Source: Mesoflavibacter sp. (GTDB taxonomy: Bacteria > Pseudomonadota > Alphaproteobacteria > UBA8366 > Aestuariispiraceae). From it: a stretch of 64,000 nt of DNA. Within the stretch, counting starts at the first letter, position 1, and every line of letters begins with the position of its first letter. A model generated the notes under the pieces. That model had not been told where the DNA came from and ran no database searches. It saw only the letters and a program-made list of their open reading frames with translations. The stretch spans positions 1,302,001 to 1,366,000 of the forward strand of contig CP051228.1 in assembly GCA_017792345.1 (NCBI GenBank), written 5' to 3'. The position numbers and the translations under genes are program-made. This document shows positions 37,757 to 59,904 of this stretch, in pieces.

Positions 37757-38107
37757 TCATTTGGCCGAGGAACAGGCCTTGATCAGGTTCAGCACCTGAT
37801 TTCGAACGCCTTCGTCTTCAATCGCGTCGATCTGCTTTGCCATGTGAATCGTGCGGCGCGGCAGGAAGTTTTCGTTGACGTCGCCGTCATATTCCATGTC
37901 TTCGAAGAAGAAACTGACCGGCACTTCCAACGCGTTGGCAAGCGCCCAGAGGCGGCTCGATCCAATCCGGTTGGCACCTTTTTCGTATTTCTGAACCTGC
38001 TGAAAACTGATCCCCAGCAGATTGCCGAGCTTTTCCTGGCTCAGCCCCTTCGCGGCGCGGGCTTCGCGCACACGGCGTCCGACATGCGCGTCGATGGGAT
38101 GAGGCAT
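37757..38107 (-). CDS. XRE-family regulator, PraR-like
   Basis: 116 residues. The helix-turn-helix spans about 8-62 (VGRRVREARAAKGLSQEKLG, ISFQQVQKYEKGANRIGSSRL) and is followed by a short acidic linker (FFFEDMEYDGDVNE) and a helical tail. The FQQVQKYEKG recognition helix is typical of a common alphaproteobacterial group (PraR in rhizobia). ATG 38107 with AAGGA upstream gives the standard length; an open extension to 38185 crosses the palindrome at 38131 and is not coding. That palindrome, 24 bp before the start, suggests autoregulation. Confidence 0.9.
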   Translation of the reverse strand: MPHPIDAHVGRRVREARAAKGLSQEKLGNLLGISFQQVQKYEKGANRIGSSRLWALANALEVPVSFFFEDMEYDGDVNENFLPRRTIHMAKQIDAIEDEGVRNQVLNLIKACSSAK

Positions 38108-38409
38108 AACGTAATCCTTTCTATGTATCGTTCCGCAATTCTTGCGGAATCCAAATTCGCCCCCACAGCGAATCAGGTCGTCCACGCCAGTCGCATCCGT
38201 TAGAATATCGCGTCAAACCTCCCGTACCACAAGATTTTCAGGGAATCCGACCGGATGTCCCCCGGCGATTGCAGCGCCGGGGACGATCACGATATGGCGT
38301 TGTGCGCTGGTGCCTTCGGATCGGTCCCGGGGCCAAGGATGGACAGATGGCAGGGACTCCCGGATAACGGTTGGGACGGTTTCGGACAAGTCCACCCACG
38401 GCTGGCGAG
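38108..38409. other. 302-bp intergenic region with operator-like palindrome and a GC hairpin
   Basis: No gene is convincing here on either strand. It holds the palindrome at 38131-38149 beside the XRE gene and a strong GC hairpin at 38260-38282 (CCCCGGCG / CGCCGGGG, 7-nt loop) that could shape the leader of the J-domain gene or separate the two divergent units. The remainder shows nothing I recognise. Confidence 0.5.
38131..38149. promoter_or_regulatory. Perfect palindrome TTCCGCAA-TTC-TTGCGGAA, candidate XRE operator
   Basis: Eight-base perfect arms with a 3-bp centre, 24 bp upstream of the PraR-like regulator's start codon. Position and symmetry fit autorepression by a dimeric XRE protein. 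No other copy was noticed in the window. Binding is inferred. Confidence 0.5.
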
Positions 38410-39090
38410 ATGAACGACGCATCGACCACGGGTCACAAGCAATCCTATTCGATCCCCTGCGCGACGGAATTCCGGGACCGGGTGCTGGCTCTGGCCGAGG
38501 CGCGGGGCGTCAATGCCGCCGATCTGGCGCGCTCGGTCATTCTGGTCCTGCCCCTTCCGGTGATCGAGGCCGCACCGGATCCGGGCGATCCCGACCGCGA
38601 GGACCGGGAAACGATCACCCTGAAATCCGGCCCGGACAAGGGCAAACCCTGGAAGCGCAAGCCACGTCTGCAGGTGCGCCTGCCCGCCGGCTACGACCCG
38701 GTCCTGCTGCGCAAGGCGCTGGGACTGGCATTGAGCCTGGAACGGGGAGAGCAGCGCCTGATCCTGGAGGCCGCATCCCGTCCGACGCGCGAAGCGGAAT
38801 CGGCCCGGGCGCGGGCGGAAACCGAACAGGCGCATGAAAAGAGCGCCCGCCTGATGGCGGCGGTGCATGTCCTGGCGGGGGAGCGCCTGCCTCATGCCGT
38901 ACGAACCCGAGACGAGGCCCTGTTCGTCCTGGGCTTCCCGCCCGGGGCCCGGCCGGATGCCTCGGCGATCAAGTCGCGCTACCGGCAGCTTGCCACCGTG
39001 CACCATCCCGACAGCGATACCGGTGACACCAGCCGCATGGCGCAACTGAACCAGGCGATGAGTTTCATGAGAGGGTATATCAAAAATTAG
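38410..39090 (+). CDS. DnaJ-domain (J-domain) protein with unknown N-terminal part
   Basis: 226 residues. The C terminus (about 175-226) is a J domain: LFVLGFPPGARPDASAIKSRY, then LATVHHPDSDTG with the essential HPD, then RMAQLNQAMSFMRGYI. J domains stimulate the ATPase of DnaK-type chaperones. The N half starts with a short region that could contact DNA or protein (EFRDRVLALAEARGVNAADLARSVI, ribbon-helix-helix-like length) and a central basic, then acidic helical region rich in Ala/Glu/Arg. ATG 38410 is used, with a weak ribosome-binding site. Client proteins unknown. Confidence 0.8.
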   Translation: MNDASTTGHKQSYSIPCATEFRDRVLALAEARGVNAADLARSVILVLPLPVIEAAPDPGDPDREDRETITLKSGPDKGKPWKRKPRLQVRLPAGYDPVLLRKALGLALSLERGEQRLILEAASRPTREAESARARAETEQAHEKSARLMAAVHVLAGERLPHAVRTRDEALFVLGFPPGARPDASAIKSRYRQLATVHHPDSDTGDTSRMAQLNQAMSFMRGYIKN

Positions 39091-39120
39091 TTTTACTCAT
39101 TTTTATTAGCGAGAATTTTG

Positions 39121-39149
39121 TTGACCTTTCGGGATTGCACGCCATTAAT
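39121..39149 (+). promoter_or_regulatory. Sigma70-type promoter for the HTH-prephenate dehydratase gene, leaderless spacing
   Basis: TTGACC (39121-39126), a 17-bp spacer and ATTAAT (39144-39149). Transcription would start about 39156-39158, at the ATG itself, and there is no ribosome-binding site before that ATG. This predicts a leaderless transcript. The surroundings are AT-rich compared with neighbouring genes. Confidence 0.55.
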
Positions 39150-39157
39150 CCCGGCCC

Positions 39158-40285
39158 ATGAGCCTGTCTCGCAGAATCAAGGAGGCCCGCGTCACCGCGG
39201 GTCTGAACCAGAAGGATCTGGCCGACCGGCTGGGGGTGACCCAGTCGACCATCGCCTTGTGGGAGACGGGCAAAACCGCGCCGCGCCGCGCGCTGATGCC
39301 GAAACTGGCCGCCGCCCTGAAAGTGACGTCGGCCTTTATCGAGCACGGCCTGCACGCGGCTTCCGCGCCCGCGCAATACGCCGCCCCGCGCCGTATGGGC
39401 CATGTCAGTCAGGACCGTGAAGCCATGATCGTCAATCCCGCCACCGAAAATCCCGTCATCGCCTTCCAGGGCGTCCCCGGCGCTTTCTCCCATCTTTCCT
39501 GCCGGGCTGCGTTTCCGGCGATGGAACCGATGTCCTGCGCGTCGTTCGAGGATGCCTTCGCGGCGGTGGAGGAAGGCCGGGCCGGTCTGGCAATGATTCC
39601 GATCGAAAATTCGCTGGGTGGCCGGGTCGCGGATATTCACCATCTGCTGCCAGAATCGAACCTGTTCATCGTCGCCGAACATTTTCAGCCGGTGCACCAT
39701 TATCTGCTGGGCCCGAAAGGCGCGACGCTGGAGACGGTGAAGGAAGCGCACAGCCACCAGCAGGCTCTGGCGCAATGCCGCAATACGCTGCGCGAATTGA
39801 AGATCAAGCCGGTCGCCGCCGCCGATACCGCCGGGGCCGCCATGGCGGTGGCCGAGTTGAACGACCCGACCATCGCCGCCGTCGCCTCCTCCCTTGCGGC
39901 AGAGACCTATGGCCTGGAAATCCTGCGCCCGCGCATCGAGGACCGAATCGGCAATGTGACGCGCTTCGTCGTCATGTCGCGCACGCGGATCGAGCCGGAC
40001 CCGCGTTCCGGCCCGTGCCTGACCAGTTTCGTCTTCACCGTGCGCAGCGTCCCGGCCTCCCTCTACAAGGCGATGGGCGGCTTCGCGACCAACGGCGTCA
40101 ACATGATCAAGCTGGAAAGCTATATCAGCGTCGGCGACGATTCCCGCGCCCGCTTCTATGCCGAGATCGAGGGCCATCCGGCCGAAAAGGCCGTCGACCG
40201 CGCCATGGAGGAACTGCAGTTCTTCACCAACAACGTGAAACTGCTGGGCGTCTATCCCCAGGCGGAGTTCCGCCAGGACGATTAG
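39158..40285 (+). CDS. pheA: Prephenate dehydratase with N-terminal XRE DNA-binding domain and C-terminal ACT domain
   Basis: 375 residues in one uninterrupted frame. Residues 1-63 are a complete XRE helix-turn-helix (RRIKEARVTAGLNQKDLADR, VTQSTIALWETGKTAPRRAL); 64-98 are a linker; 99-275 are prephenate dehydratase (IAFQGVPGAFSHLSCRAAFP, IPIENSLGGRVADIHHLL, catalytic NVTRF at 267-270); about 285-365 are an ACT domain with GVNMIKLESYIS, the alphaproteobacterial form of the phenylalanine-binding ESRP motif. It converts prephenate to phenylpyruvate in phenylalanine synthesis. The HTH fusion is not part of the usual enzyme and suggests phenylalanine-responsive DNA binding. Met90 could be an internal start, but its ribosome-binding site is weak. 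Confidence 0.88.
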   Translation: MSLSRRIKEARVTAGLNQKDLADRLGVTQSTIALWETGKTAPRRALMPKLAAALKVTSAFIEHGLHAASAPAQYAAPRRMGHVSQDREAMIVNPATENPVIAFQGVPGAFSHLSCRAAFPAMEPMSCASFEDAFAAVEEGRAGLAMIPIENSLGGRVADIHHLLPESNLFIVAEHFQPVHHYLLGPKGATLETVKEAHSHQQALAQCRNTLRELKIKPVAAADTAGAAMAVAELNDPTIAAVASSLAAETYGLEILRPRIEDRIGNVTRFVVMSRTRIEPDPRSGPCLTSFVFTVRSVPASLYKAMGGFATNGVNMIKLESYISVGDDSRARFYAEIEGHPAEKAVDRAMEELQFFTNNVKLLGVYPQAEFRQDD

Positions 40286-40332: not shown

Positions 40333-40360
40333 CGTGCTCCTGCGGAAGCAGGAGCCTTCG
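40333..40360. repeat. REP-like hairpin repeat, copy 1
   Basis: CGT, then GCTCCTGC-GGAA-GCAGGAGC, then CTTCG. The 8-bp perfect stem with GGAA loop recurs at 40451 and, with a GAAA loop, at 59885. Intergenic, between the convergent pheA and nudC genes. Confidence 0.7.
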
Positions 40361-40450: not shown

Positions 40451-40478
40451 CGTGCTCCTGCGGAAGCAGGAGCCTTCG
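40451..40478. repeat. REP-like hairpin repeat, copy 2
   Basis: Identical to the 40333-40360 copy over 28 bp (CGTGCTCCTGCGGAAGCAGG and onward through CCTTCG). Lies 36 bp beyond the nudC stop codon and could stabilise or terminate transcripts from both sides. Confidence 0.7.
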
Positions 40479-59884: not shown

Positions 59885-59904
59885 GCTCCTGCGAAAGCAG
59901 GAGC
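59885..59904. repeat. REP-like hairpin repeat, copy 3
   Basis: GCTCCTGC-GAAA-GCAGGAGC, the same stem as at 40333 and 40451 with one loop change, followed by CTTTGCG instead of CTTCG. Intergenic, 28 bp after the lipoprotein hydrolase gene. Confidence 0.65.

Follow-up and report, generated by a model that had tools for sequence, protein, structure and literature searches.

Does the prephenate dehydratase encoded at this locus carry a DNA-binding domain of its own and, if so, on what might that domain act? The gene lies within a stretch of 64,000 nucleotides (hereafter, the window) and occupies one frame (39158-40285, + strand) that runs from its ATG to its end, i.e., 375 codons, without an internal stop or frameshift. 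Its parts are as follows.

39158..40285, + strand: fusion gene, HTH-linker-prephenate dehydratase-ACT, 375 aa (open reading frame, Pfam, AlphaFold)
39164..39337, + strand: XRE/Cro-CI-type HTH, residues 3-60 (Pfam HTH_3, 434 repressor match, pLDDT)
39242-39268, + strand: predicted third HTH helix, residues 29-37
39347..39451, + strand: linker, residues 64-98, not conserved
39458..39985, + strand: prephenate dehydratase catalytic domain, residues 101-276 (Pfam PDT; NCBIfam PRK11899 above cut-off)
40004..40255, + strand: ACT-fold domain, residues 283-366 (AlphaFold topology; 6vh5 match)

This arrangement confirms the original prediction, which had read an HTH, a linker and a prephenate dehydratase with its TRF motif in a single frame. 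More specifically, Pfam places HTH_3 at residues 7-59 (E 7.5e-14) and PDT (PF00800) at residues 101-276 (E 1.6e-55; 188.2 bits versus a cut-off of 25.2) of the stop-free 375-aa product, the TRF motif corresponds to residues 268-270, and the equivalog-level NCBIfam model of prephenate dehydratase, PRK11899, scores 418.7 bits on the C-terminal part (cut-off, 359). Fifteen sequences of solved structures matched the protein, namely the 434 repressor over residues 2-64 (E 2.9e-08) and dehydratases from residue 96 on, and none of them spans both parts. The AlphaFold model has a mean pLDDT of 89.5, with values of 93-98 for the helices of the HTH, a five-helix domain of the HTH_3 type, and below 50 for residues 68-85 of the linker, which are predicted to be disordered. 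The ACT domain that had also been proposed is upheld by fold and by structural match, but not by a Pfam call in the window protein: only one of the 16 fusion proteins scores E<=0.001 with PF01842 (ACT), whereas residues 287-367 of the model adopt the beta-alpha-beta-beta-alpha-beta order of the ACT fold and the best Foldseek PDB match of the PDT-ACT part is 6vh5, a dehydratase in complex with phenylalanine (54% identity). LysR-type effector domains appear in the same Foldseek list with weak similarity. Pfam matched no families other than HTH and PDT in this protein, and no AAA-type domain.

T268, R269 and F270 are invariant in 35 proteins, and the catalytic and ACT residues show no variation across 4 fused and 31 unfused proteins. 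The own genome (4.9 Mb, one contig) contains a single PF00800 match, which is the fusion gene. Judged by its motifs, the fusion protein is an intact enzyme and the sole prephenate dehydratase of its genome. Prephenate dehydratase acts late in phenylalanine synthesis. It shares PDT-ACT with the monofunctional alphaproteobacterial dehydratase (6vh5; PRK11899), which lacks the N-terminal HTH and linker of about 98 residues. The earlier statement about canonical dehydratases, namely that the PDT domain comes first, is true of this monofunctional type but not in general, given that chorismate mutase-dehydratase fusions exist (PRK10622 model).

The same HTH-PDT-ACT design recurs in 16 genomes, across the window's family (f1) and a family of another order (f68); numbers with G and L denote the genomes and loci compared. 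The fusion is full length and stop-free, without a stop or frameshift at the junction, in 14/14 f1 genomes from 7 genera and in 2/2 f68 genomes (G225, 58%; G106, 63%). HTH_3 and PDT were both detected in all 16 proteins, and in G002 the match fell into two pieces of one 410-aa open frame with a longer linker. Within the window's order, 37 of the 43 genomes searched matched: 14 belong to f1, and the 23 others matched in the dehydratase part only. In the class sample (224/289 genomes matched), full-length matches among those listed came from three f1 and two f68 genomes; in the phylum sample (378/398), the HTH was seen, among the matches listed, in the own genome only. Unfused relatives start at the dehydratase. 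At four loci (L009, L037, L067 and L075), matches begin at query residue 44-57 and so overlap the HTH in part; these were rejected as fusions, their extra N-terminal frame not being an HTH by sight. We also took 19 of the listed matches with suspicious extensions (match start at query residue 38-63), including G019, the one apparent exception within the own order, and scanned all six frames of the surrounding DNA with an HMM built from the HTHs of the 16 fusion proteins; no HTH was found at any of the 19, G019 included, and the controls L082, L128 and L129 were positive. Thus, the fusion of a DNA-binding domain to prephenate dehydratase is real.

The two domains and the linker differ in conservation. 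Mean pairwise identity among 13 representatives is 49% for the HTH, 11% for the linker and 75.5% for both PDT and ACT. In the HTH, dN was below dS in 8/8 pairs (from 0/0.223 to 0.278/0.523); the linker likewise had dN below dS in these 8 pairs, and wider pairs gave large dN (e.g., 0.814/1.056). Nine HTH residues (R11, Q18, L21, A22, T31, W35, E36, G38 and P42) are invariant in the 16 fusion proteins, among them the fold-typical Q18, T31, W35, E36 and G38. These comparisons support purifying selection on the HTH.

Where translation begins bears on whether the HTH is made at all. The candidate signals are as follows.

39121..39126, + strand: -35-like hexamer TTGACC (promoter-pattern search)
39146..39151, + strand: -10-like hexamer TAATCC, with a 19-bp spacer, 6 bp before the ATG in a leaderless arrangement
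39425..39427, + strand: possible internal start Met90, with an SD-like stretch in 39405-39424 (duplex -6.9)

With an alternative -10, ATTAAT at 39144-39149, the spacer would be 17 bp; a strict sigma-70 scan gave no site at the window's fusion promoter. The arrangement TTG(A/T)(C/T)N, 16-19 bp, TANNNN, 5-8 bp, ATG occurs in 11/16 fusion genes versus 1% of shuffles, and promoter-like hexamers that run into the ATG in this way suggest a leaderless message from Met1. Use of Met1 is thus supported both by the hexamer pair and by the dN/dS ratios of the HTH. An opposing account holds that the fusion is an assembly or annotation artefact, with Met90 as the sole start of the dehydratase and no translation of the HTH frame. 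Despite the SD-like stretch before Met90, we consider this scarcely credible: the same open frame is present in 16 genomes, on which ground an assembly artefact was rejected, and exclusive translation from Met90, which the original prediction had named as a way in which it could fail, is contradicted by the conservation of the HTH, over which dN is below dS.

Translation may plausibly start at Met90 as well. In 12/16 fusion genes, an SD-like stretch (-6.6 to -10.3) precedes an in-frame ATG near the dehydratase junction; 13% of codon positions reach a duplex energy of -6.6. Its position and wording shift between lineages within an otherwise unconserved linker, and 10/11 leaderless-like genes carry it. 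These features point to a possible scheme, which we hold as a tentative minority reading, of two products, i.e., the full-length HTH-enzyme from the leaderless message and the enzyme alone from the internal ATG, whose mixed oligomers tune regulation. Against it, G004, G005, G006 and G106 have no such internal signal (G005, -6.3, and G006, -9.6, have the strongest SD-like stretches at the first start among the 16; G004, -4.2, is unremarkable), and synonymous shuffles are marginal (Fisher p 0.059 for 12 genes and 0.052 for 8 lineages; p 0.10 for Met90 of the window gene), so that the signal may be left over from where the ancestral unfused gene began. Two products would be an added layer on autoregulation, not its opposite.

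A target for the HTH is suggested by three related genera. The palindrome TTGTGCA-N3..5-TGCACAA, first spotted by eye in upstream DNA and tested afterwards, has exactly one occurrence in each of the genomes G001, G002 and Curvivirga (G003), every time no more than 70 bp 5' of the fusion gene, against a chance expectation (by arithmetic) of ~0.1 site per genome, anywhere. Whole-genome searches of all 16 fusion carriers with the pattern TTGTGCAN{3,7}TGCACAA gave no match in the 13 other fusion genomes, including G004-G008 and f68; the reversed control of the pattern gave none, and the palindrome was absent from the 83 upstream regions of unfused genes. The same promoter holds a second site in G001 (2 mismatches) and in G002 (1 mismatch). 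In these three genomes the third helix reads SHST(V/L)NRWE, the other 13 having (T/A)QST or SQPT; third-helix sequence and palindrome therefore appear to go together, though in few independent events, since G001, G002 and G003 are related and cannot count as three wholly separate cases. No general excess of inverted repeats was seen upstream of fused genes (p<=0.05 in 4/16 fused versus 8/40 unfused upstream regions, the 40 being a random draw from the 83), so that the case for an operator turns on the specific palindrome.

The original prediction had offered repression of the own gene or of other aromatic amino acid genes. Its first part is favoured, since the palindrome stands only before the fusion gene in the three genera, and its second is not: the genomes of G001, G002 and G003 hold no exact site elsewhere, and the 1-mismatch places away from the fusion gene (G002:C1:340396 and G003:C180:36925) are both inside open reading frames. 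Allowing up to 2 mismatches, TTGTGCANNNNNTGCACAA had 24 matches in G001, 17 in G002 and 29 in G003, against 9, 5 and 29, respectively, for its reversed control. A palindrome before one gene is suggestive of an enzyme that governs its own synthesis, and a single-target autoregulator is the best reading of these patterns.

It might be argued that the HTH is no longer regulatory and serves stability or localisation, with another regulator using the palindrome; several genera indeed have no identified operator, G004-G008 and f68 lacking the palindrome. We judge this quite improbable, given the invariance of the fold-typical HTH residues in all 16 proteins, and a dedicated second regulator for a gene that bears its own HTH would be less economical.

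The position of the sites bears on the sign of regulation. The G001 palindrome lies at -57 to -39 and ends 2 bp before the -35 hexamer, which recalls CI at PRM, the model of activation by binding just upstream of -35; the HTH, too, is of the 434/CI kind. The protein could accordingly be an autogenous activator that recruits RNA polymerase, its binding being weakened by phenylalanine. We regard this as improbable: in Curvivirga, the palindrome (-49 to -29) overlaps the likely promoter, and feedback repression is the commoner logic of biosynthesis genes.

For the window's own genome, an operator is inferred from conservation and from relatives only. The candidate is the following.

39091..39120, + strand: candidate regulatory block that abuts the -35 hexamer on its 5' side (62% vs 38% expected)

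In these 30 bp, the window pair shares 62% identity with four congeners (38% expected by composition), and the four congeners share 86% among themselves (42% expected); the 17 bp after the -35 are less conserved (33% versus 28% and 43% versus 25%, respectively). This conservation marks 39091-39120 as a candidate site; neither it nor the upstream region of the window's genus contains a clear palindrome. A genus motif, TYTSATWTTTATNA, has 18 occurrences across 8 genomes, of which 5 are at the fusion gene (G009-G013), and no exact match in the own genome. It was rejected as a specific operator, as it also occurs elsewhere, including 5' of what we take, by sight, to be genes for an LptF-like protein (2 genomes) and a GroES-like protein (2 genomes).

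Several features of the neighbourhood were recorded. Directly upstream of the fusion gene is a DnaJ-like gene (38371-39090, +) with a C-terminal J-domain just under the Pfam cut-off, and two genes upstream is a separate XRE-type regulator gene (37757-38185, -; HTH_3). At L084 and L087, an inverted repeat, ATATGAGAA...TTCTCATAT, spans the stop codon of the upstream gene just 5' of the fusion gene (p 0.015 in shuffles) and is less perfect in congeners. A GC-rich palindromic repeat, GCTCCTGCGGAAGCAGGAGC, is present at 40336-40355, 40454-40473 and 59885-59904 (0.01 expected), with two exact copies just behind the fusion gene and one copy with one mismatch; it looks like a dispersed REP-type element.

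Gene order also informs the history of the fusion. In a tree of 109 sequences two changes were required, which could be a pair of gains or a gain and a loss, G225 falling beside the unfused L005, L007 and L008; in a reduced 35-sequence tree, a single fusion clade was not rejected (p-AU 0.353). Both f68 fusion genes sit behind a cytidylyltransferase gene (PF02348), as does the unfused L005 (by sight), and the HTH was therefore probably added beside this gene, with a later move in f1. In f1, the fusion gene follows the DnaJ-like gene in 13/13 genomes with sequence there (by sight; the 3 neighbours scanned with Pfam were all weak, below the cut-off), the Curvivirga contig ending at this point.

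We propose, with a probability of about 0.62, that the fusion protein is an active prephenate dehydratase whose XRE HTH regulates its own promoter, probably as a phenylalanine-responsive repressor; comparison with the related genera supports the autoregulation. A housekeeping dehydratase would have gained an XRE-type DNA-binding domain and come to act on its own promoter. Its PDT-ACT core presumably oligomerises as known dehydratases do, which would place two HTHs on the two half-sites of the palindrome. Abundant phenylalanine would bind the ACT domain, inhibit the enzyme and favour the DNA-binding form, hindering RNA polymerase, such that feedback inhibition and feedback repression would be combined in one polypeptide. 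Such a regulator need not give up catalysis, since its ligand site, in the ACT domain, is separate from the active site. Least certain in this scheme are the effector and the sign of regulation (repressor versus CI-like activator). It is a rather doubtful extension that one gene forms the whole loop, with a leaderless HTH-enzyme and an internal-start enzyme assembling through PDT-ACT and phenylalanine switching both activity and promoter occupancy; under this reading, a tetramer could hold both sites in the genera with two operators (G001 and G002). If true, the complete loop would give the man-made enzyme-regulator Q1 a counterpart that is natural and catalytically live.

How does this protein compare with known systems? 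In the regulator TyrR, an ACT domain responds to aromatic amino acids; TyrR has a central AAA-type domain, lacks an enzyme domain and differs from the fusion protein in domain order and in its HTH. The fusion protein matches HTH and PDT families only and does not belong to it. PutA acts in proline catabolism and has a different type of DNA-binding domain. Like the fusion protein as we read it, PutA is described as a metabolic enzyme doubling as the repressor of its own operon (PMC6978683). BirA is an essential enzyme that occurs with or without an N-terminal HTH, the HTH form repressing biosynthesis genes; it is, however, a biotin ligase with a winged HTH, a biotinyl-AMP signal and several targets (PMC4016012), whereas the fusion protein has an XRE HTH and probably one target.

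BzdR and its derivative Q1 share with the fusion protein an XRE-type HTH, a linker and then an aromatic-pathway enzyme domain; BzdR itself controls a catabolic operon, its kinase-like domain being inactive and serving to sense benzoyl-CoA (PMC3602430). The fusion protein, with a C-terminal part that is PDT-ACT and not shikimate-kinase-like, is not a member of the BzdR family; it is natural, Q1 being man-made, and it differs from both in having a dehydratase with intact motifs, a separate ACT domain and, as its likely target, its own gene. In Q1, the BzdR HTH and linker were placed on E. coli shikimate kinase; catalysis was kept and operators were bound, and in vivo a ligand response came only after catalysis was removed (PMC3602430). 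Q1 shows by analogy that such an enzyme-regulator can be built, and its conflict between catalysis and response might not arise where ligand domain and active site are separate. The view that no regulator of this design had been described agrees with searches of the open-access literature: judged by title and the start of the abstract, no paper among those listed describes HTH-prephenate dehydratase-ACT, and a search on the name Aestuariispiraceae found nothing.

Taken as a whole, the sequence comparisons indicate a real, conserved enzyme-regulator fusion, apparently undescribed and kin in kind to BirA, PutA and BzdR. Biosynthetic enzymes with their own DNA-binding domain are few, and the one considered here, an enzyme of amino-acid biosynthesis whose ACT domain would sense the end product, appears to target its own promoter. 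The case bears on the question raised by BzdR, namely, whether one protein can be both an enzyme and a ligand-responsive regulator. Autoregulation is directly testable in the three genera that have a unique palindrome, and the fusion is fixed in a bacterial family, with unfused sister enzymes available for comparison.
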